Assembly (NCBI RefSeq): GCF_025165815.1
Contig: NZ_JAFFZE010000015.1
Span: 1 to 64,000 of the forward strand
Direction: 5' to 3'
Length of the DNA: 64,000 bases
DNA from: Actinophytocola gossypii
GTDB lineage: Bacteria > Actinomycetota > Actinomycetes > Mycobacteriales > Pseudonocardiaceae
Shown here: piece by piece, positions 1 through 30,574 of the stretch
Numbering within the stretch: position 1 is the first letter of the stretch
Layout of the letters: the number at the start of each line of letters is the position of its first letter
Notes under the pieces: model-generated
The model's database searches: none
What the model saw: only the letters and a program-made list of their open reading frames with translations
What the model was told of the DNA's origin: nothing
Position numbers and translations under genes: made by a program

Positions 1-2418
1 CGGGTCGGCAACCCCCCGTTCGGCGTCGGCGCGGGCGCCCCGCCGTCGCGGCCCCCGGGGCCGCGACCCGGTGGCGGTGGCCCTGGTGGCCCCGGCGGCG
101 ACCGTGCGGCCCGTCCCGGTGACGCGCGGCCGGCACCCGGCCCGCGCGGCGGCGGCAACGCGCCGTCCGGCGGCGGCAACCGGCCATCGCCGGGCAACAT
201 GCCGCCCCGGCCCAACCCGGGCATGATGCCGCCCCGACCGGCTCGTCCGGCCGGTGGTGGCCGCGGTGGTCCCGGCGGCGGCCGTGGCGGTCCCGGTGGT
301 CCCGGCGGCGGTGCGCGTGGTGGTCCCGGCGGCCCGCGCGGTGGCGGCGGCGGTGGCGGTGGCTTCCGCGGTGGTCCCGGTGGCGGCGGTGGCGGCGGTG
401 GCGGTGGCTACCGCCCCGGCGGTGGCGGTGGCCCCGGCGGTGGCGGTGGCTTCCGCGGTGGCGGTCGTCCCGGTTCCGGCGGCGGTCGCGGCGGTGCCGC
501 GGGCGCGTTCGGTCGCCCTGGTGGGCCGTCCAGGCGTGGTCGCAAGTCGAAGCGGCAGAAGCGCCAGGAGTACATGGAGAACATGCAGGCGCCCAGCGTC
601 GGCGGCGTCCGCCTGCCCAAGGGCAGCGGCGAGACGATCCGGCTGCCGCGCGGTGCCTCGCTGACCGACTTCGCCGAGAAGATCAACGCCAACCCGGCGT
701 CGCTGGTGCAGGTGCTGTTCCACCTCGGTGAGATGGTCACCGCGACCCAGTCGGTCTCCGACGACGTGCTCGAGCTGCTCGGCACCGAGATGAACTACAA
801 GGTGCAGGTGGTCAGCCCGGAGGAGGAGGACCGCGAGCTGCTGGACTCCTTCGACATCACCTTCGGCGAGAACGCCGGTGGCGAGGAGGCGCTCCAGGCC
901 AGGCCGCCGGTCGTGACCGTCATGGGTCACGTCGACCACGGTAAGACCCGCCTGCTGGACACCATCCGCAAGACGACCGTGCACGAGGGCGAGGCCGGCG
1001 GCATCACCCAGCACATCGGCGCCTACCAGGTCGCGGTCGACGTCGAGGGCAACGAGCGGCTGATCACCTTCATCGACACCCCGGGTCACGAGGCGTTCAC
1101 CGCCATGCGTGCCCGTGGTGCCAGCTCCACCGACATCGCGGTGATCGTGGTCGCCGCCGACGACGGTGTGATGCCCCAGACGGTGGAGGCGATCAACCAC
1201 GCGCAGGCCGCCGAGCTGCCGATCGTGGTCGCGGTCAACAAGATCGACAAGGAGGGCGCCAACCCGCAGAAGGTGCGCCAGCAGCTCACCGAGTACGGGC
1301 TGGTCGCCGAGGAGTACGGCGGCGAGACGATGTTCGTCGACATCTCGGCGCGGCAGAACATCAACATCAACGGGCTGCTCGAGGCGGTCGTGCTCACCGC
1401 GGACGCGTCGCTCGACCTGCGGGCCAACCCCGAGATGGAGGCGCAGGGCGTCGCCATCGAGGCGCACCTGGACCGCGGTCGCGGCCCGGTCGCCACGGTG
1501 CTGGTCCAGCGCGGCACGCTGCGGGTCGGCGACTCGATCGTCGCCGGCGACGCCTACGGCCGCGTGCGCCGGATGGTCGACGAGTTCAACGACGACGTCA
1601 TCGAGGCGAACCCGTCGCGGCCGGTCCAGGTCATCGGCTTCACGTCGGTGCCGGGTGCCGGTGACACGTTCCTCGTCGTCGAGGAGGACCGCACGGCCCG
1701 GCAGATCGCCGAGCGTCGCGCGGCCCGCATGCGCAACGCGGCGAACGCCCAGCGGCGCAAGCGGATCAGCCTCGAGGACCTGGACTCCGCGCTCAAGGAG
1801 ACCAGCCAGCTCAACCTGATCATCAAGGGCGACAACTCGGGTACCGTCGAGGCACTCGAGGACGCGCTCACGAAGATCGAGGTCGGCGACGAGGTCGAGC
1901 TGCGGGTCATCGACCGCGGTGTCGGTGGCATCACCAAGGCCAACGTGGACCTGGCGATCGCGTCCGACGCGATCATCCTCGGGTTCAACGTCCGCGCCGA
2001 GGGCAAGGTCACCGAGCAGGCCAACCGCGAGGGCATCGACGTCCGGTACTACTCGGTCATCTACCAGGCGATCGAGGAGATCGAGCAGGCGCTCAAGGGC
2101 ATGCTCAAGCCGGTCTACGAGGAGGTCGAGCTCGGTCGCGCCGAGATCCGCGAGGTGTTCAAGTCCTCGAAGGTCGGCACGATCGCGGGCTGCATGGTGC
2201 TCTCCGGGGAGATCCGGCGCAACGCCAAGGCCCGGCTCATCCGCGACGGCTCGGTCATCCACGAGAGCCTGCCGGTCAGCTCGCTGCGGCGGTTCAAGGA
2301 CGACGCGGTCGAGGTCCGCGAGGGCTTCGAGTGCGGTCTGACGCTCGGCTCGTACGGCGACCTCAAGGTCGACGACATCATCGAGACCTACGAGCTGCGC
2401 GAGAAGCCGCGCGACTGA
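1..2418 (+). CDS. infB: Translation initiation factor IF-2 (5' end outside window)
   Basis: IF-2 is the cytoplasmic GTPase that places initiator tRNA on the 30S subunit and promotes subunit joining. The reading frame is open from base 1, so the start lies upstream; 805 residues are visible. Order: a long disordered Gly/Arg/Pro-rich segment (to about nt 530), a basic linker, the IF2_N helix region (about nt 600–830), then the G domain with GHVDHGKT (nt 925–948), DTPGH (nt 1075–1089) and NKID (nt 1237–1248), followed by domains II–IV to the stop. The Gly-rich N-terminus is typical of actinobacterial IF-2 but very pronounced here. A hairpin terminator follows, then ylxP and rbfA in the usual order. 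Identification is certain. Confidence 0.98.
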
Positions 2419-3996: not shown

Positions 3997-4869
3997 GTGC
4001 CTGCAGGCGACCTTCGCCGATCGCGGCGAGACGTCCTGCTTGGTGCTGTCGGCTTGGGCCTCGCGGCCGCCGGCTGTGCATCAGAGCCAGAGGACGTTCC
4101 TGTCAGAACCGGCGCTACCAGTTCCGCGCCAGGGACCCTGTCCGCCGCCACTCCCACGGCGCCGCCCGAACCGGTCACCGTCGAGCGGGTGCGGTCGGCG
4201 GCCAGGGGCACCGAGGTCGAGCTGGTGGTCATGCGGCCGGAGGACGCCGGCCGGGAGCTGCCGGTGTGCCTGGCGCTGCACGGCCGGAACGAGGGCGCCG
4301 GCATGTTCGTCGACCTCGGCCTGCCGGACGTCCTGACCTCGCTGGTCAACTACCAGGGCGTCCCGCCGTTCGCGGTGGTCGCGGTGGACGGCGGGGACTC
4401 CTCCTACTGGGTCTCGCGCGACTCCGGCGACGACCCGCAACGGATGCTCCGCGAGGACATGCCGGCCTGGCTGGCCGAGCGGGGCCTGTCCACCAACCCG
4501 TTCGCCGTACTCGGCATCTCGATGGGCGGCTACGGCGCGCTCAACTACGCGACGAACGTGCACAACCCGGCGGTCGCGGTACTCAGCCCGGCCCTGTTCC
4601 TGAGCTGGCCGGAGGCCGAGGCGCGGGACGTGTTCACCGACGAGCAGCAGTGGCGCGAGACCGACCCGCTGCAGAACCTGGACGACATCACCGGCCTGCC
4701 GATCGGCGTCTGGTGCGGCGAGACCGACCCGTTCATCGACGGCGCCCGCCGGCTGATCGAGCAGGCCGGACCGACGGTCGCCGAGGTCGAGCCGGGTGAC
4801 CACGACGACGTCTACTGGCGCAAGGTCCTCCCCGACGCACTCAAGTTCGTCGGCAGCCACGTGGCCTGA
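3997..4869 (+). CDS. Tat-exported lipoprotein alpha/beta hydrolase (esterase-like)
   Basis: 290-residue putative esterase anchored outside the membrane. The N-terminus has a twin-arginine motif (RRSRRDVLLG) and a hydrophobic stretch ending in a lipobox (LAAAGC), so export by Tat and lipidation are predicted. The hydrolase domain is of the esterase D/antigen 85-like type. The nucleophile elbow is GISMGGYGAL, the acid is probably the Asp in GETDPFID, and the His in EPGDHDDVYW completes the triad. GTG start. Substrate unknown. It stands alone, with a strong terminator downstream. Confidence 0.8.
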   Translation: MPAGDLRRSRRDVLLGAVGLGLAAAGCASEPEDVPVRTGATSSAPGTLSAATPTAPPEPVTVERVRSAARGTEVELVVMRPEDAGRELPVCLALHGRNEGAGMFVDLGLPDVLTSLVNYQGVPPFAVVAVDGGDSSYWVSRDSGDDPQRMLREDMPAWLAERGLSTNPFAVLGISMGGYGALNYATNVHNPAVAVLSPALFLSWPEAEARDVFTDEQQWRETDPLQNLDDITGLPIGVWCGETDPFIDGARRLIEQAGPTVAEVEPGDHDDVYWRKVLPDALKFVGSHVA

Positions 4870-4886
4870 CCCGCACAAACAGCATC

Positions 4887-4919
4887 CGCGCCGTGCGAAT
4901 GGACCATTCGCACGGCGCG
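4887..4919 (+). terminator. Terminator hairpin after the lipoprotein hydrolase
   Basis: Perfect 14-bp stem: CGCGCCGTGCGAAT (4887–4900) and ATTCGCACGGCGCG (4906–4919) around a 5-nt loop, starting 18 nt after the hydrolase stop codon. It separates that gene from nrnA. Confidence 0.7.
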
Positions 4920-4958
4920 CTCCTTGATCGCCGTGACCCACCGGGCCACGGTGGAGTC

Positions 4959-6035
4959 ATGGCCCAGATCTCAACTCCACAACCATCCACCGCTCGTGCA
5001 CTGGACGCGGCCGCTCCGTTACGTGAGGCTGTCCGCGTGCCGTCCACCGACCTCGCCGCCGCCACCGACCTGCTGCGCGGCGCAACCGACGTGACCCTGC
5101 TGGCACACGTCACGCCGGACGCCGACGCGCTCGGCAGCGCGCTGGCACTGGGCCTGGTCCTGCACCGGCGCGGCGCGGCCGTCCGGGTCTCGTTCGGCGC
5201 GCCGGACGAGACGCCGGAGTCCCTGCGCTGGCTCGACTCGGCCGGGCTCGTCGTTCCGGCCGACGCGGTGCCGCCCGCCGCCGACCTCCTGGTCACGGTC
5301 GACTGCAGCAGCGTCGACCGGCTGGGCCGGCTCGGCGGCCTGGTCGAGGCCACCGTCGCGGGCGGGGGAGCGGTTCTCGTGGTCGACCACCACGCGAGCA
5401 ACACCCGCTTCGGCACCCACCACGTGGTCGACGACGGCGCCGAGGCCACGACCGTGCTGGTCGCCGCCCTGCTCGACGAACTCGGTATCCCACTCGACGC
5501 CGACCTCGCCCGGTGCCTGTACGCGGGCCTGGTCACCGACACCGGCTCGTTCCAGCGGGCACGACCGGCCACCCACGCGCTGGCCGCCCGGCTGATCGAG
5601 GCGGGCGCCGACCCGGCGGTCGCCGCCCGCGAGCTGTTCGGCAACCATCCGTTCGCGTTCCTGCGCATGCTCGGCGCGGTGCTCGGCCGGGCGGAGCTGG
5701 AGCCGGACGCGGCCGGCGGGCTCGGGCTGGTGCACACGGCGGTGCGGCTCGACGACCAGGCGGGCGTCCGCGTCGAGGAGGTGGAGTCCGTGGTCGACAT
5801 CGTGCGGACCACCGCCGAGGCCGAGGTGGCGGCCGTGCTCAAACAGGCGGGGCCCGACACCTGGATCGGTTCGTTGCGCGCCGCCGGAACGGTCGACGTG
5901 CGAGCGGTCGCCGCCCGGTTCGGCGGCGGCGGACACCGGCTGGCCGCCGGATTCACCGCGCACGGTGAGCTGCCGGAGGTCCTCGATCGGCTGCGGGACG
6001 CGTTGCGGATTCCGGTAACGCCCGCATCGGGTTGA
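4959..6035 (+). CDS. nrnA: DHH/DHHA1 phosphoesterase, NrnA-type oligoribonuclease / pAp phosphatase
   Basis: 358-residue Mn-dependent phosphoesterase that degrades short RNA oligonucleotides and dephosphorylates 3'-phosphoadenosine 5'-phosphate. Motifs of the DHH superfamily appear in order: TPDADALGSA, VDCSSVDRLG, VDHHASN and YAGLVTDTGSF. The DHHA1 substrate-binding domain ends with the diagnostic GGGGHRLAAGF. The ATG at 4959 has GGTGGAG just upstream and is preferred over an in-frame ATG at 4893. In actinobacteria this gene normally lies between rbfA and dinF; here an accessory sugar island separates it from the MATE gene. Confidence 0.93.
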   Translation: MAQISTPQPSTARALDAAAPLREAVRVPSTDLAAATDLLRGATDVTLLAHVTPDADALGSALALGLVLHRRGAAVRVSFGAPDETPESLRWLDSAGLVVPADAVPPAADLLVTVDCSSVDRLGRLGGLVEATVAGGGAVLVVDHHASNTRFGTHHVVDDGAEATTVLVAALLDELGIPLDADLARCLYAGLVTDTGSFQRARPATHALAARLIEAGADPAVAARELFGNHPFAFLRMLGAVLGRAELEPDAAGGLGLVHTAVRLDDQAGVRVEEVESVVDIVRTTAEAEVAAVLKQAGPDTWIGSLRAAGTVDVRAVAARFGGGGHRLAAGFTAHGELPEVLDRLRDALRIPVTPASG

Positions 6036-6065
6036 GCACGGTCGGGCGTCGCGGAGTTGAACAGG

Positions 6066-6077
6066 TGGTATAAACCA
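6066..6077. promoter_or_regulatory. DasR/GntR-like operator before the sugar ABC operon
   Basis: TGGTATAAACCA has inverted half-sites TGGT/ACCA and matches 10 of 12 positions of the published DasR-responsive element TGGTCTAGACCA. It lies 72 nt before the TTG start of the solute-binding protein, a suitable place for repression by a HutC-type GntR regulator. The regulator is not encoded in this window. The functional assignment is inference. Confidence 0.55.
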
Positions 6078-6148
6078 ATCGCCGCGCGGGTCGGGTGGGC
6101 CGGCGGCGACCAGCCAGGCGGACCGGCCCGGCGGAAACGGAGGAGAAG

Positions 6149-7381
6149 TTGAGGCGCGTCATCAAGGCAGCCGCGGTCGCGACCGTGGCCGCGCTCGGGC
6201 TCGCTGCCTGCGGAAGTGAGTCGGGCGGCGAGGGCGGCAAGACCGAACTCGATCTGCTGGTGCCGATCTACAGCGACAAGACCAAGCCGTACTGGGAGAA
6301 CCTGGTCAAGGCCTTCCAGGAGGAGAACTCGGACATCCAGGTCAACCTGGAGGTCCAGAGCTGGGACAACATCTACACAGTGCTCGACAACAAGATCCAG
6401 AACCAGGCCGCGCCGGACATCCTGGAGCTGGACGCGGCCGGCCCGGCCTACGGTTCCGAGGACCTGCTCTACGAGGCCGAGGAGATCGTCTCGCCGGAGA
6501 CCCTCGCCGACATCGAGCCGACGTTCATCGACAGCGCCAAGATCGACGGCGTCGCGTACGGCCTGCCGACCGTGGCCTCGACCAGGGCCCTGTTCTACAA
6601 CAAGGACCTGTTGACCCAGGCCGGCGTCACGGCACCGCCGAAGACCTGGGACGAGCTGATGGCCGCCGCGCGGAAGATCTCCGACCTCGGCGGCGGCGTG
6701 CACGGCTACGGCATGCCGCTGGGCAGCGAGGAGGCCCAGGCCGAGACCTCGATCTTCGCCTACGGCGCCGGCGCGAGCTGGGAGTCCGACGGCAAGATGA
6801 CCATCGACACCCCGGAGGCCAGGGAAGCCCTGACCTTCATGAAGGAGATGATCGACGCGGGGGTCACCCAGCCCGACCCGGGCGCCACCGACCGAACCCC
6901 GCTGCTCGACGTCTTCATCCAGGGCAAGATCGGCATGATCCAGGGCCTGCCGCCGATCGTCGGCCAGATCAACGAGAAGAACCCGGACCTGAACTGGGAC
7001 ATCGCACCCTCGCCGACCCCGGACGGCGAGCCGTCCACGCTCGGCGTCGCCGACTACTTCGTCGGCTTCGACAAGGGCGAGGAGAAGCAGGAGGCCATCT
7101 CGAAGTTCCTCGACTTCTTCTACCAGCAGGACAACTACCTCGAGTTCAACGAGAACGAGGGCTTCATCCCGGCCACCAAGTCCGGTGCCGAGGCGGCGGC
7201 GGACAAGCCGGAGCTGCAGGTCTTCCTGGAGACCCTGCCCGATGCGAAGTTCTACCCGGCCACCAACCCGGCCTGGGGCGCGACCTCGGGCGCGTTCAAG
7301 GATCTGGTCGGCCAGATCCAGAGCAAGCCGGTGGACGACGTGCTCGCGCAGATCCAGGCGAAGGCCGACGCACCGGCGTGA
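6149..7381 (+). CDS. ABC sugar importer, solute-binding lipoprotein
   Basis: 410-residue family 1 extracellular solute-binding protein that captures a sugar for the permeases encoded next. The N-terminus is a Sec signal with lipobox (ALGLAAC), so the mature protein is lipid-anchored. The TTG at 6149 is chosen because GGAGGAG sits at 6139–6145 and because it gives a compact signal peptide (MRRVIKAAAVATVAALGLAAC); an in-frame GTG at 6095 would add an unlikely Arg-rich leader. The SBP fold is supported by the Trp/Tyr-rich pocket and segments such as VAYGLPTVASTRALFYNKDLL and the C-terminal INxFL-type region. A hairpin downstream may hold permease expression below that of the SBP. Confidence 0.9.
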   Translation: MRRVIKAAAVATVAALGLAACGSESGGEGGKTELDLLVPIYSDKTKPYWENLVKAFQEENSDIQVNLEVQSWDNIYTVLDNKIQNQAAPDILELDAAGPAYGSEDLLYEAEEIVSPETLADIEPTFIDSAKIDGVAYGLPTVASTRALFYNKDLLTQAGVTAPPKTWDELMAAARKISDLGGGVHGYGMPLGSEEAQAETSIFAYGAGASWESDGKMTIDTPEAREALTFMKEMIDAGVTQPDPGATDRTPLLDVFIQGKIGMIQGLPPIVGQINEKNPDLNWDIAPSPTPDGEPSTLGVADYFVGFDKGEEKQEAISKFLDFFYQQDNYLEFNENEGFIPATKSGAEAAADKPELQVFLETLPDAKFYPATNPAWGATSGAFKDLVGQIQSKPVDDVLAQIQAKADAPA

Positions 7382-7388
7382 GCCCCAA

Positions 7389-7425
7389 CCGTCCGGGACC
7401 GCCCACGCCGGGCGGTCCCGGACGG
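7389..7425 (+). terminator. Intra-operon hairpin between binding protein and permeases
   Basis: A perfect 16-bp stem (arms 7389–7404 and 7410–7425, loop ACGCC) lies between the binding-protein stop and the permease start. Such hairpins commonly stabilise the upstream mRNA or cut read-through, so the binding protein is made in excess over the permeases. Confidence 0.65.
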
Positions 7426-7457
7426 CCGACAGCATTCGACGAGGCTAGGAACGAGGC

Positions 7458-8390
7458 GTGACAGCACCGACCACCGCGCGCCGGTCACGGAACCAGGCGT
7501 TGAGACGGCGGGCCAGGCGGCAGACGACCCTGCACGCCCTGCCCTGGCTCGCGCCCGCGCTGATCCTGATCGGCGGCGTGGTCCTGTTCCCGGTCGGGTA
7601 CATGATCTACACGTCGTTCCGGGACCTCACCCGGTTCGGCACCGACCGGGGCTGGGCCGGCTGGGAGAACTACGAGCGGGTGCTCGACCTCGGCCACCTG
7701 CCCAGGGTGCTGGTCAACACCGGCGTCTGGGTCGTCGGCGTGGTAGCGCTGAGCATCGGCTTCGGGCTGGTGCTCGCCCAGTTCCTGAACAAGCGGTTCC
7801 CGGGCCGCAAGATCCTCCGCATGGTGGTCATCGTGCCGTGGGCGGCGTCGGTGGTGATGACCTCGACCATCTTCGTCTACGGCCTCGACCCCTTCTACGG
7901 CATCATCAACAAGTTCCTGGTCGACGTCGGCATCCTGGACGCGCCGTTCGGCTTCCTGAAGAGCCCGCTGCCCGGTTTCCTGTCCGCGATGGCGGTCGCG
8001 GTGTTCGTGTCGGTCCCGTTCACCACCTTCGTCCTCCTCGCCGGCCTGCAGACCGTGCCGCACGACGTGCTCGAGGCGGCGCAGATCGACGGGGCGAACC
8101 GCACCCAGACCTACTGGCGCGTGGTGTTCCCGATGCTGCGCGGCGCTCTCGCGGTGGCCACGATCATCAACGTCATCAACGTGTTCAACAACCTGCCGAT
8201 CCTCAAGACGATGACCGGGGCGATCCCCGGCTACGACGCGGACACCACGACCTCGCTCATGTTCAAGATCATCCAGAGCGACCGCCAGATCGACACCGCG
8301 AGCGCGCTGTCCGTGCTCAACTTCGTCGTGGTGGTCGTCGTCATCGGCATCTACCTGCGCGTCGTGCGCCCGATGCGGCAGGAGGACTGA
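7458..8390 (+). CDS. ABC sugar importer permease (MalF-like)
   Basis: 310-residue inner-membrane permease of the carbohydrate ABC importer family CUT1. Six transmembrane helices are visible, the first at about residues 25–48, after a basic N-terminus (RRRARRQTTLHALPW). The EAA loop that docks on the ATPase is present as DVLEAAQIDGANRTQTYWRV. GTG start with GAGG upstream. It is followed at once by the partner permease, whose ribosome binding site lies inside the 3' end of this gene, so the two are translationally coupled. Confidence 0.92.
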   Translation: MTAPTTARRSRNQALRRRARRQTTLHALPWLAPALILIGGVVLFPVGYMIYTSFRDLTRFGTDRGWAGWENYERVLDLGHLPRVLVNTGVWVVGVVALSIGFGLVLAQFLNKRFPGRKILRMVVIVPWAASVVMTSTIFVYGLDPFYGIINKFLVDVGILDAPFGFLKSPLPGFLSAMAVAVFVSVPFTTFVLLAGLQTVPHDVLEAAQIDGANRTQTYWRVVFPMLRGALAVATIINVINVFNNLPILKTMTGAIPGYDADTTTSLMFKIIQSDRQIDTASALSVLNFVVVVVVIGIYLRVVRPMRQED

Positions 8391-8393
8391 GCC

Positions 8394-9287
8394 ATCAGCA
8401 CCGTCATCGACCGCCCGACCAGGGTCACCACCGGGGGCGAGGGCACCAGCCGGCCCGTGGCGCGGGAGAAGAAGCGCTGGGGCCTGACGATCGTCGGCAC
8501 CGTCGTCGCGCTGGTGTTCCTGTTCCCGTACCTGATCATGCTGGTCGGCGCGTTCAAGCCGCGGCGGGAGATCCTCCAGGTCCCGCCGGCCTACCTCCCG
8601 GACAACTGGGAGCCCGGCAACTTCCTCACCATGTGGGACACGCCGGAGACGCCGCTGCCGTTCAACCTGCTGTCCACGGTGGTCATCTCGCTCGGCGGCA
8701 CCGCGCTCGCCCTGCTCGCCGCCCTGCCCGCGGCCTACTACACCGCGCGGCACCGGTTCCGGCTGCGCCTGCCGTTCCTGCTGCTCGTGCTGGTCACCCA
8801 GATGCTGCAGCCGACGGTGCTGGCCTCCGGCCTGTTCCGCGAGTTCGTCGAGCTGGGGATCAACGACACCTGGCTGGCGATGATCCTGGTCAACGCCGCG
8901 TTCAACCTGTCGTTCGCGGTGTGGATCATGCACAGCTTCTTCGCCAGCGTGCCCAATGAGATCGAGGAGGCGGCCTGGCTCGACGGCTGCTCCAAGGGCC
9001 AGTCGCTGCGCCGGATCATGCTGCCGCTGGTGTGGCCGGGCATCGTCACCGCGGTCATCTTCACGTTCATCGCCTGCTGGAACGAGTTCGCGGCCAGCCT
9101 GATCCTGCTGCCGACCGACGTCAACCAGCCGTTGACGGTGGCGTTGACCCGGTTCATCGGCCAGTACGAGTCCGCCTGGCAGTACGTCTTCGCGGTCTCG
9201 ATCATCGGTATTCTGCCGGTCGTGGCGCTGTTCGCGCTGATCGAGAAACACCTCGTCTCCGGCCTCACCGCGGGCGGGGTGAAGTGA
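8394..9287 (+). CDS. ABC sugar importer permease (MalG-like), probable ATC start
   Basis: Second CUT1 permease, about 297 residues. It has six transmembrane helices, and the EAA loop reads EIEEAAWLDGCSKGQSLRRI. The start is unusual. A strong AGGAGG (8380–8385) is followed 8 nt later by ATC (8394) in frame, giving xSTVIDRPTRVTTGGEG…, a normal cytoplasmic N-terminus. The first conventional start, GTG at 8457, has no ribosome binding site and would remove 21 residues. So either ATC is used as the start or an ATG was misread. The sugar is unknown; neighbours suggest an amino sugar. Confidence 0.88.
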   Translation: MSTVIDRPTRVTTGGEGTSRPVAREKKRWGLTIVGTVVALVFLFPYLIMLVGAFKPRREILQVPPAYLPDNWEPGNFLTMWDTPETPLPFNLLSTVVISLGGTALALLAALPAAYYTARHRFRLRLPFLLLVLVTQMLQPTVLASGLFREFVELGINDTWLAMILVNAAFNLSFAVWIMHSFFASVPNEIEEAAWLDGCSKGQSLRRIMLPLVWPGIVTAVIFTFIACWNEFAASLILLPTDVNQPLTVALTRFIGQYESAWQYVFAVSIIGILPVVALFALIEKHLVSGLTAGGVK

Positions 9288-27814: not shown

Positions 27815-28124
27815 GCGCGTGAAACGTTTCTACTGGGAAAACGTCACCCGGTTTGCGCCGTTTGCGATGCAACGCTACTCCGCTTGGCTGGTGTGATCAG
27901 ACGGTCACGCAAGTAGCGTCAGCACCCGTCAGAGGCTAACCAACTCCCGTCTGTTCGTGCGAAAGTCCCACCCTGCCATCGTCACCGGGACCGCGCGCGA
28001 TGAGGGCCAGACGAGAGACAGGGTGGGCTCGCGTGGTCCCCGCGCGGGCCCACCCCAGCTCGTCATGCTCTCGATCCCGCACGGGTCGGTAGCGGTGCCA
28101 GGGCACCCCCGAAGGGAATGTCCC
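27815..28124. other. Intergenic region before the Cys-rich cassette
   Basis: 310 nt with lower GC and no convincing gene. It holds the perfect palindrome GAAACGTTTC (27821–27830), of the type bound by LacI-family regulators. It also has a spaced inverted repeat CCCACCCTG (27967–27975) / CAGGGTGGG (28019–28027) that could fold the leader RNA. The promoter of the downstream cassette presumably lies here; no unambiguous -35/-10 pair was found. Confidence 0.6.
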
Positions 28125-28559
28125 ATGGCAGCACCTCCCGACGTCGGCGCGATGGCGCCGACCACCGCCGAGACCTCGTGGTTCTGCTGCGGCGCCGGTT
28201 GGGGCCCCTGCGGCTCCGCGGGCGGCGGCGCGTGCGGCAACTGCCAGTCCGGCAGCCGGCACTGCGCCTGGCCGAACACCTCCGACGCCTGCTTCGACAT
28301 CACCAGACCGGACCGCTGCGGCGACAACCTGCTGCGCCGGACCTGCGGACACACGTTCTACGTCGAGCACCTGTGCGGCACCACCGAGATCGCCGTGCAG
28401 ATCGCCGACTGCGGCCCGCAGACCGACCTGTGGTGCGGCGAGCAGTCGTGCTGCTCGGGCAACTGCGCCACGAACCGCCTGCTCGACCTGACGCCGTCGG
28501 CCTACAGCGCGATCGGCAACCTGTCCAGCGGGATCATGCCGGTCCGGATCAGGAGCTGA
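28125..28559 (+). CDS. Cys-rich protein with double-psi beta-barrel-like C-terminus
   Basis: 144 residues with 15 cysteines, most in the first two thirds (FCCGAGWGPCG, ACGNCQ, HCAWP, TCGHTFYVEHLCG, EQSCCSGNCA). The end, VQIADCGP … RLLDLTPSAYSAI … GIMPVRI, follows the double-psi beta-barrel pattern of RlpA/barwin/kiwellin-type proteins. Only the ATG at 28125 has a ribosome binding site (AAGGGA). There is no Sec or Tat signal in the predicted protein or in the open frame upstream, although so many cysteines suggest an extracellytoplasmic disulfide protein. The next genes encode a Tat-exported protein and a MauE-like redox protein, so piggy-back export is possible. Not a recognised enzyme. Confidence 0.82.
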   Translation: MAAPPDVGAMAPTTAETSWFCCGAGWGPCGSAGGGACGNCQSGSRHCAWPNTSDACFDITRPDRCGDNLLRRTCGHTFYVEHLCGTTEIAVQIADCGPQTDLWCGEQSCCSGNCATNRLLDLTPSAYSAIGNLSSGIMPVRIRS

Positions 28560-28565
28560 GAGACC

Positions 28566-29174
28566 ATGGATTCGTTGGGACGCAGGAAGTTCCTCACCGG
28601 CGCGGTGCTCGGCACCACGGCCGCCACGGTCGTCGGCGCCAGCACGATGGGCTCGTTCGCCCCCGAGGCCGCGGCGGGCCAGCGGCGTCCGCTCGACGTC
28701 GAGGCGGGCGCGCACGACCCGAACTTCATCGAGGGCCGGATCACCGGGCTGCGCAAGGGAATGCTGATGGTCACCAGCTCGGACCGCAGCATGCACCGGA
28801 TCCACCTGACCGGTGCGACGAGCGTCTGGAAGCTGCGCCCGACCTCGTCGGACGCGGCGAAGGTCGGCGATGGCCTCTACGCCCGCGGCGTGCGCATGCC
28901 GGACGGCACGCTCGCCGCCGACGCGGTGTGGCTGAACATCGTGAACCTCCAGGTGCACATCACCTCGATCGGCCGGAACGTGATGCACCTCGACCACCAC
29001 GGCGACCGGATCGTCGGGCACGTGGTCGCGGGCACCACCGCCGCTGTCTACAACAGCACCCCCGCGGTCAGCGACCTGTCGCTGCTGCAGGTGGGCAAGC
29101 ACGCCCAGGTGATCGGCGCGTGGCGGCCGGACACCAACGAGGTCGACCTGGCCACCGTGTACGCGGCGGCCTGA
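28566..29174 (+). CDS. Tat-exported protein of unknown function
   Basis: 202 residues starting 6 nt after the Cys-rich gene, so certainly in the same operon. The N-terminus is a Tat signal: GRRKFLTGAVLGTTAATVVG with a probable cleavage near EAAAG. The mature part is beta-rich, with two similar segments (FIEGRITGLRKGMLMVTSSD and VQVHI-type TSIGRNVMHLDHHGDRIVGHV), resembling the small OB-like barrels of DUF5666-type proteins. No cysteines are in the mature part. It may act as partner or carrier for the neighbour that lacks a signal peptide. Function unknown. Confidence 0.8.
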   Translation: MDSLGRRKFLTGAVLGTTAATVVGASTMGSFAPEAAAGQRRPLDVEAGAHDPNFIEGRITGLRKGMLMVTSSDRSMHRIHLTGATSVWKLRPTSSDAAKVGDGLYARGVRMPDGTLAADAVWLNIVNLQVHITSIGRNVMHLDHHGDRIVGHVVAGTTAAVYNSTPAVSDLSLLQVGKHAQVIGAWRPDTNEVDLATVYAAA

Positions 29175-29179
29175 TCCCC

Positions 29180-29209
29180 GCCCGGGCCGCCGTGCCGGGC
29201 GGCCCGGGC
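29180..29209 (+). terminator. Hairpin between the Tat protein and MauE-like genes
   Basis: 12-bp perfect stem GCCCGGGCCGCC (29180–29191) / GGCGGCCCGGGC (29198–29209). It ends 27 nt before the MauE-like start and may lower expression of the membrane protein relative to the two upstream genes. Confidence 0.55.
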
Positions 29210-29235
29210 CCCACCTCTTGTCGTGGAGGACGAAC

Positions 29236-30042
29236 GTGATCGAGTGGTTCGCCGGCGCGCAGCAGCTCGTGTTGGCCGGGGTGCTGGTCTGGGCCGGCAC
29301 GGTGAAGTTCCGGGCGACCGCACCCGAGGCGGCGCGCCGCTCGGCGTTGCGGAAGCTGGTCGGCGAGCGCCGCGTGGTGACCGCCTACCGGGCGGTGGGC
29401 ACGGCCGAGCTGACGCTGGGCGCCCTGCTGCTGGCCCCACCGATGTTGGTGATCGAGTCGTACGCGGCGGTCGCCCTGTTCACCGGGATGCTCGGCTACC
29501 TGGTGTACGCGAAGCGGAAGGCACCCGAGTCCGGCTGCGGCTGCCTCGGTGACAAGCAGACCCCGATCCGCGGCCGGGCGTTCGCACGCACCGCCGTGCT
29601 GCTGGCCGCCGCACTGGCGACCCTGGGCGCCGCCTGGTGGCCCGCGGCGCTCGCCGACCGCCCGCTCGCGACCGTCGCCGTGCTGGTGGCCGAGGCGGCG
29701 CTGGTGGTGGCGTTGTCGCCGGAGCTGGACCACCGCTGGCTGCTGCCGCTGCGCCGGTGGCGGGTCCGGGTCCGCCACCCCCTGGCCACCGGTCCGACGG
29801 TGGTGCCGCTGGAGTCCAGCGTGCAGCGCCTGCAGAAGAGCGACGCCTACCGGTCGGTGGCCGGGCTCCTGCGCTCGGACCTGCTCGACTGGTGGGAGGA
29901 GGGGGAGTGGCGCCTGCTCACCTACGCCGCCACCACCTCCGACGGCCAGGTCACCGCGGTCTTCGCGGTGCCCCTGCGCGACCACGGCCCGGCCGACGTC
30001 CGCGTCGCCCTGGTCCCCGACCCGGAGCCGGCGCCCGCGTGA
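29236..30042 (+). CDS. MauE/DoxX-like redox-associated membrane protein
   Basis: 268 residues. The first 155 or so hold about five transmembrane helices of the MauE/DoxX fold. A Cys-Gly-Cys pair in SGCGCLGDKQTP (residues 101–103) lies at a membrane boundary, the site of the CGCFG motif of MauE proteins, which are needed for disulfide formation in methylamine dehydrogenase. A soluble C-terminal domain of about 100 residues (SVAGLLRSDLLDWWEEGEWRLL…) is an unusual addition. The GTG start follows GGAGG. Third gene of the cassette; likely involved in oxidising the cysteines of the first gene's product (inference). Confidence 0.82.
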   Translation: MIEWFAGAQQLVLAGVLVWAGTVKFRATAPEAARRSALRKLVGERRVVTAYRAVGTAELTLGALLLAPPMLVIESYAAVALFTGMLGYLVYAKRKAPESGCGCLGDKQTPIRGRAFARTAVLLAAALATLGAAWWPAALADRPLATVAVLVAEAALVVALSPELDHRWLLPLRRWRVRVRHPLATGPTVVPLESSVQRLQKSDAYRSVAGLLRSDLLDWWEEGEWRLLTYAATTSDGQVTAVFAVPLRDHGPADVRVALVPDPEPAPA

Positions 30043-30049
30043 CGCGGCG

Positions 30050-30574
30050 TCAGAGGATCCAGCCGGCGACCAGGGCCGGGGACGCGGCGATCGCGCTGAA
30101 CCGGATGAACCGCCCCAGCAGGCCGGCCGACACGAAGGCCGACAGGCTCATCCTGGCCATGCCCGCGAGCACTGCGGTCGCCATGTACGGCGGGAGTCCG
30201 ATCAGGGAGCTGACTCCATAGGTCCCGACCATCCAGCGGGGATGCCGGTGGCACTTCTCCCGCAGCGCCTCGACCCAGCCGCGGATCCGCTTGGTGCGCA
30301 GCTCCCAGCGGATCCGCCTGGCCGTCATCGGCCGCTCGGCCCTGCGGCGCCGGTGCATCCACCGGGGAAGGTGCAGCTGGCCGCGGGCGGCGTAGTAGTA
30401 CACGAGCTTCCCGCCGACCTGGCCGACCGCGACCACGGCGCCGAGTGCCAGCCACGAGATGTGCGGCTCCTGCAGGGCGAGCCCGACCAGGAAGACCTCG
30501 ACCGACACCAGCGGGATCAGCGCCGAGCCGAACGCGACGCCGAGGGTGACGCACAGCCACGCAACCACCAGCAC
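30050..30574 (-). CDS. VTT/DedA-like membrane protein
   Basis: 174 residues with four or so membrane segments and a basic cytoplasmic loop of about 55 residues (HLPRWMHRRRRAERPMTARR…). The second half, GVSSLIGLPPYMATAVLAGMARMSL, fits the VTT (SNARE-associated/DedA) domain signature around the re-entrant loop (FxxG.PxxPxx..G), members of which act as lipid scramblases or flippases. Convergent with the MauE-like gene, 8 nt away. Function is family-level only. Confidence 0.75.
   Translation of the reverse strand: MLVVAWLCVTLGVAFGSALIPLVSVEVFLVGLALQEPHISWLALGAVVAVGQVGGKLVYYYAARGQLHLPRWMHRRRRAERPMTARRIRWELRTKRIRGWVEALREKCHRHPRWMVGTYGVSSLIGLPPYMATAVLAGMARMSLSAFVSAGLLGRFIRFSAIAASPALVAGWIL

Follow-up and report, generated by a model that had tools for sequence, protein, structure and literature searches.

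A putative three-gene actinobacterial module for oxidation and Tat-dependent export of a cysteine-rich double-psi barrel protein

How does a disulfide-rich cargo use the Tat machinery, which wants folded proteins, in nature? In the laboratory, Tat use by disulfide-rich proteins has been solved by oxidases added to the cytosol. The question is addressed by a three-gene cassette at 28125..30042 of the DNA analysed here (the window: 64,000 nucleotides of Actinophytocola gossypii, contig NZ_JAFFZE010000015.1), which has the look of a portable answer evolved in nature, complete with oxidase and carrier and present in actinobacteria that can be grown in culture. The initial annotation of the locus had proposed that a folded cysteine-rich protein is co-exported with a Tat-signal partner and matured by a MauE-like membrane protein, as a secreted redox or wall-associated system.

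The cassette and its distribution

Our reading of the window confirms the three annotated genes, all on the forward strand. CYS (28125..28559) encodes a 144-residue, Cys-rich double-psi beta-barrel protein without a signal peptide, TAT (28566..29174) a 202-residue Tat-signal protein, the presumed carrier (RR motif, structure model), and MAUE (29236..30042) a MauE-family membrane protein. The CYS stop codon and the TAT start ATG at 28566 are 6 nt apart, as annotated, while MAUE starts with a GTG at 29236 preceded by GGAGG, with an alternative in-frame TTG start at 29218. According to Pfam, pnp, an M16 peptidase gene and dapB lie upstream of CYS in the window. After MAUE there is a convergent VTT-domain-like gene (30050-30574; 23.6 bits, under the cut-off of 33.9), followed by GNAT and AlkZ-like genes.

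The initial annotation called for a search for conserved co-occurrence, and the three genes are indeed constant neighbours. Full-length CYS (E below 1e-60) is present in 22 of 346 sampled genomes of the window's family, its own genome included, and full-length TAT (E at most 3.3e-90) in the identical 22, with the two genes adjacent in every one by coordinates. Neither occurs alone at full length in these 346 genomes; about 9-11 first-look candidates were scored per genome, and weak relatives may therefore have escaped. A further 26 genomes match TAT in the Tat signal region only (profile positions 2-60), with the exception of G616, and the remaining two CYS matches are those of G616, described below, and G497. 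We discarded the G497 match, by eye an ordinary secreted RlpA-like protein with no cassette, and a match in G055 (E 7.5e-4), a 28% partial CYS match from which TAT and MAUE are absent.

A search with CYS yielded 61 named loci from Pseudonocardiaceae, Streptomyces, Kribbella, Fodinicola, Catenulispora and one record titled Rhodococcus. One of the Streptomyces loci, L042, belongs to S. griseofuscus DSM 40191. By tblastn with the window proteins, TAT directly follows CYS in 60 of the 60 scorable loci, and MAUE follows TAT in 59 of them (58 by the window query and L056 by a closer query); in the exception, L073, the sequence stops about 360 nt past TAT. In the 61st locus (L071, Fodinicola), the matched CYS sits at the contig end after two further cassettes in tandem. 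This locus has three CYS copies, and one CYS and one MAUE gene were each matched in two frames and may therefore be frame-shifted. Two tandem cassettes are also found in L105 (G039, 4785-8762). The Rhodococcus record (L026, JOAA01000005.1, titled Rhodococcus rhodnii) perhaps comes from a mislabelled strain, its cassette and flanks clustering with Kibdelosporangium loci.

The order CYS-TAT-MAUE is kept in different genera amid differing neighbours. Together with the strict co-occurrence and the fused relatives described below, it strongly supports the linkage proposed at the outset. Protein distances of CYS, TAT and MAUE correlate at r 0.93-0.95 (60 loci), a co-divergence that is expected from common descent alone. 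In a sample of the class, a clear CYS is found in 5 of 394 genomes (own included) and a weak match in one, G433; beyond the class, a draw of 296 genomes from the whole phylum returned the window and one 29-residue match, and no other cassette. Identical sequences were removed before the invariance counts given below (RR, CxC, Cys) and before the fusions were counted, and the start codons of relatives were picked by rule.

Flanking genes were given up as a clue to function, since among the 25 largest clusters none but the cassette itself and antisense frames exceeds 10 of the 61 loci. Most smaller clusters belong to a single genus, but some cross genera: dapB, M16 and VTT-type genes recur among Pseudonocardiaceae, and a transporter-like cluster occurs in nine loci (Kribbella, one Streptomyces, Catenulispora). 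Upstream of CYS, a SigR-type stress-sigma promoter was found in 0 of 65 stretches with two simple patterns, a SigE-like pattern in 7 of 65 and a BldN-like one in 1 of 65, and this scarcity gives no sign of common control. Judged by eye from the printed loci, non-coding stretches upstream of CYS (about 27945-28020 in the window; Actinophytocola and Kibdelosporangium loci) are alike around GCGAAAGTCCCACCCTGC and GCGATGAGGGCCAGACGAGAG. The Kribbella loci (for example L041 and L047) have a strongly conserved leader with GGCAAAAAGTTTCC and AGGTCTTACCGCCCCTAGACCTGGAGG immediately before the CYS start, with small differences.

The cysteine-rich barrel, its presumed carrier and their fused relatives

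As annotated, the window CYS has 15 Cys in 144 residues and no visible signal peptide. The family shares the latter trait in 64 of 64 rows, as judged from start sites and not by a signal-peptide predictor, and in 22 of these a stop lies at most 25 codons upstream of the conserved core. Fourteen Cys are invariant across the family (the window protein adds C47), with a range of 14-17 per protein and an odd total (15 or 17) in 21 of 63 proteins. In 29 of 63 proteins a Cys in the N-terminal tail accompanies another in the 86-92 strand, and no protein has just one of the two. Such paired presence is the pattern that a disulfide would require, and it could reflect few evolutionary events.

The annotated barrel is borne out by the structure model but is not restricted to the end of the protein: from about residue 12, the whole of CYS is predicted to be barrel (residues 12-144, 28158..28556; VIA-align range 12..144). 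The model is confident, has the double-psi fold, and finds its best matches mostly among extracellular barrels, so that CYS is predicted to be of the RlpA/loosenin/expansin type; the sequence is conserved over most of its length. Pfam places the window protein just below the curated cut-off (PF03330, RlpA-like double-psi barrel, 27.4 bits against 28.8) and matches all 63 members at E up to 0.1, the best at 8.7e-9. CYS ends with the barrel at residue 144, and the second, beta-sandwich domain of expansins is absent. Its conserved polar residues include two Asp, D95 and D121, invariant in 63 of 63 rows. D121 aligns with GRIIDVS of 4avr, that is, with the Asp of the RlpA GRxxDLS/T motif, and the Asp of RlpA/expansin barrels has a catalytic role. 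The secreted redox system of the initial annotation is not supported, CYS having the fold of barrels that bind wall, glycan or protein.

TAT opens with a twin-arginine signal, again as annotated (residues 1-37, 28566..28676; RRKFL ... AAA). The signal contains MDSLGRRKFLTGAVLG and ends in AAA, the cleavage site being read by eye. The RR pair is present in 65 of 65 distinct TAT proteins and the apolar stretch in 64 of 64 relatives; the signal region is modelled at pLDDT under 50. Beyond it, the predicted structure is a tandem OB-fold (about residues 51-125 and 124-202, 28716..29171; VIA-align). DUF5666 (PF18914) scores 16.4 bits on the window TAT, below its cut-off of 27, and matches 31 of 58 relatives at E up to 0.1. 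A CusF match had brought up a metal chaperone role for TAT, which we rejected: the family lacks invariant His, Met or Cys (H144 is present in 95%) and has no conserved Cys at all, giving no sign of metal chaperoning.

Whether the two proteins belong together physically is addressed by a natural fusion. The genome G616, from the same family as the window, encodes one protein of 329 residues in which a complete Tat signal (SRRTFLTAAAIGGTAAAVGG) precedes a domain resembling TAT and a barrel resembling CYS. The barrel has 12 Cys and retains the Asp, here within GRIADLT; the next gene is MauE-like and contains GCGCFG. This fusion supports a CYS-TAT complex. With the gene set and the Tat signal found on TAT and absent from CYS (from motifs and start sites), it fits a Tat hitchhiker pair.

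Searched with the G616 fusion, 45 of the 394 class genomes give a match. Family f31 accounts for 39 of these, and within it matches occur in 113 of 120 genomes and in 66 of 68 genera. We identify f31 as Streptosporangiaceae not by label but by a named Nonomuraea gerenzanensis record with both forms. This genome holds a complete split cassette and a fused gene, and both forms are also found in G187 and G379. Of 56 fused loci read, 45 are distinct, and all 45 have a same-strand MauE-like gene next, at a gap of -61 to 110 nt (extrapolated) in 44 and overlapping or abutting in L110. The N-terminal motif is readable in 33 of the 45 proteins, the classing resting on printed motifs: 32 have RR and a short AALLG-like apolar stretch without a full Tat signal, G616 is the only one with a full signal, and 12 of the 45 were not classed. 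At the D121 position, the 45 proteins carry E in 21, Q in 11, S in 5, D in 2 (G616 and L149), R in 2 and C in 1, with 3 unread. Their barrels hold 7-10 Cys (12 in G616; 7 or 9 in 31 of 45), as counted after the domains were separated automatically.

Loss of the full Tat signal and loss of the D121 Asp coincide in nearly all classed f31 proteins, and G616 keeps both features; L149, an f31 protein whose N-terminus was not classed, retains the Asp. The pattern, drawn from few lineages, fits two roles: one outside the cell that depends on the Asp, served by the exported form, and a different one inside, served by the f31 form. Since the fused relatives mostly lack a complete Tat signal and keep MauE, the module is not always an export module, and the export annotated for the window's type does not extend to every member. 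Among the larger fused loci (L152-L163), 10 of 12 have a divergent sigma factor gene upstream of the fused gene (one BLAST cluster), a possible regulator; that of L152, the one tested, is ECF-type by Pfam, and G616 and L159 lack a sigma gene.

The MauE-family protein and the side of oxidation

MAUE exceeds the curated cut-off of Pfam MauE (PF07291; E 2.4e-16, 60.6 bits, cut-off 27), and its annotated five hydrophobic segments and Cys-Gly-Cys pair (C101, C103; 29536..29544) are confirmed. The pair lies in SGCGCLG after the third hydrophobic segment, and a CxC in this place is the defining trait of the MauE family. It is invariant in 63 of 63 split-cassette proteins and in 75 of 75 with fused loci added, a set that leaves out two short frames. 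One of these (L019, 7009-7476) is an open frame of only 156 residues, internally deleted by eye, and the other (L062, 7070-7453) has only 128 and reaches the contig end.

On which side of the membrane does this pair lie? K+R per residue is 0.02 in the N-terminal tail, 0.21 in the first loop, 0.04 in the second, 0.17 in the CxC loop, 0.05 in the fourth and 0.16 at the start of the C-terminal part. The CxC loop is more positive than each neighbouring loop in 75 of 75 proteins, and the presumed inner loops jointly exceed the outer loops in all 75. These charges predict an N-out, CxC-in, C-in topology; some MAUE of fused loci are clipped N-terminally by the start rule, which leaves the CxC comparison unaffected. 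The C-terminal part (residues 159-268, 29710..30039) is likewise predicted to be cytosolic, lies outside the Pfam match (3-130) and is kept in both split and fused loci.

The window's genome has three MauE matches, and one further MauE (L118, G000:C16 about 512-515.5 kb) has a like charge pattern by eye. Next to it comes a thioredoxin-like protein with CHTC, which resembles MauD by eye and has no Pfam match, and then a protein with a Tat-like signal and a Cys-rich part (by eye) and peptidoglycan-binding repeats (Pfam). L118 parallels the cassette in combining a Tat signal, a Cys-rich protein and MauE.

The explanation we favour, at somewhat better than even odds, is that the three genes act as a unit that produces a disulfide-rich barrel and exports it, with CYS oxidised by MAUE most likely in the cytosol before export. 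CYS would be synthesised in the cytosol without a signal and bound by TAT, the tandem OB-fold protein that bears the twin-arginine signal. The MauE-like protein would form its disulfides, probably seven, most likely at the cytosolic membrane face. The folded pair would then leave through the Tat machinery, CYS hitchhiking on TAT. Outside the cell, the barrel groove with its two invariant Asp may act on the wall or another polymer, like the RlpA-, loosenin- and expansin-type barrels. For the window's type, co-export of CYS with TAT is very probable and a role of MAUE as disulfide maturase nearly as much so, while its action on the cytosolic side stands just short of an even chance. We tentatively, and at less than even odds, extend this to a fuller model: the oxidase, of MauE type, would present its CxC to the cytosol, dock there through a cytosolic domain of its own and oxidise CYS while the carrier holds it, and only the folded, oxidised pair would be exported. 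The fused sister, near-universal in another actinobacterial family, would have lost the export signal and retained the oxidase, so that its disulfide-rich product remains in the cell.

The order of events may differ from the initial annotation, which names maturation after co-export: oxidation may precede export with the CxC predicted to be cytosolic, and would do so because Tat carries folded proteins. Against cytosolic oxidation, the actinobacterial cytosol is reducing, and discussions of the methylamine dehydrogenase MauE usually concern a periplasmic substrate. The fused barrels often have odd Cys numbers, the f31 proteins break the rule of Tat export, and the topology is drawn from charges only; these points also count against our explanation.

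The same hitchhiker pair could instead be exported first and then oxidised by the MauE-like protein at the outer face of the membrane, where oxidation usually takes place. MauE has been speculated to aid disulfides in the methylamine dehydrogenase beta subunit (excerpt of PMC7794033, citing van der Palen 1997). We regard this version as rather unlikely, because the CxC loop is predicted to be cytosolic in 75 of 75 proteins, MauE is retained by fused relatives without a full Tat signal, and in E. coli a disulfide protein was almost wholly dependent on cytoplasmic disulfide formation for its Tat export (excerpt of PMC9995818). Taken together, these three points favour oxidation before export. 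It is less probable still that CYS remains in the cytosol, its Cys binding metal or acting as thiols, while only TAT is exported and MAUE has an unrelated purpose. That CYS is signal-less in a reducing cytosol would suit such an arrangement, as would the missing full Tat signal in most classed fused relatives; it conflicts, however, with G616, where CYS is fused to a protein that bears a complete Tat signal, with the lack of any full-length TAT without CYS in 346 genomes, and with the co-occurring Cys pair and the mostly extracellular barrels among the best fold matches.

Two further explanations give MAUE another task. It might reduce CYS or TAT or supply them with electrons, the unit being a surface redox system, as the initial annotation suggested in part; both the MauE-family CxC and the DoxX-like type are redox-associated. 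This appears very improbable: the Pfam scan shows no redox cofactor domain, TAT has no conserved Cys, and the fold and the two invariant Asp of CYS match wall- or glycan-acting barrels. Alternatively, MAUE could be the modifying enzyme of a pathway for ribosomally made, cysteine-modified peptides, and CYS its substrate. Excerpts of PMC7794033 list, among decRiPPter candidates, three Streptomyces families in which mauE homologues lie by precursor genes with at least 8 Cys, and these may be akin to the cassette. We give this reading hardly any weight, since CYS is a folded domain, conserved over most of its length and confidently modelled as a barrel, with no leader and core peptide, and no further gene recurs in more than 10 of the 61 loci.

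Relation to known systems

The favoured module of barrel, Tat carrier and cytosol-facing oxidase has parts of known kinds (MauE, double-psi barrel, OB fold, Tat hitchhiking), and their combination appears to be new. In the titles and abstract starts of the open-licence literature we found no description of this cassette. Many soil actinobacteria share it, and it has the appearance of an undescribed route for folding a disulfide-rich protein and exporting it. In MauE with the methylamine dehydrogenase light chain, a MauE-family membrane protein with a CxC likewise stands beside a Cys-rich protein. The cassette differs from the mau system in the extra C-terminal part of about 110 residues, in the double-psi barrel as cargo and, in the window, in neighbours that are not mau genes (pnp, M16 peptidase, dapB, VTT-like, GNAT, AlkZ-like). 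MauE-type proteins are thereby linked to a second, quite different kind of Cys-rich partner, and may work at the cytosolic face, as the cassette suggests. Compared with RlpA-like proteins, loosenin, expansin domain 1 and the Streptomyces papain inhibitor (SPI), CYS has no signal peptide of its own and no second domain, contains 14-17 Cys and has constant TAT and MauE partners. TAT itself differs from CusF/CcmE-type OB-fold proteins and DUF5666 in having two OB folds in tandem and a Tat signal.

The closest parallel to the pair is the Streptomyces tyrosinase MelC2, which hitchhikes on its Tat carrier MelC1: the genes are adjacent, one partner has the Tat signal and the other is signal-less (excerpt of PMC2758597). 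The cassette departs from it in having no copper enzyme, a Cys-rich barrel as cargo, the order cargo then carrier, a third, MauE-like gene and fused versions. According to the same source, the carrier of the intracellular MelD operon has no Tat signal and its cargo stays inside, so that MelC and MelD show the same division into exported and internal types as the split and f31 forms of the cassette.
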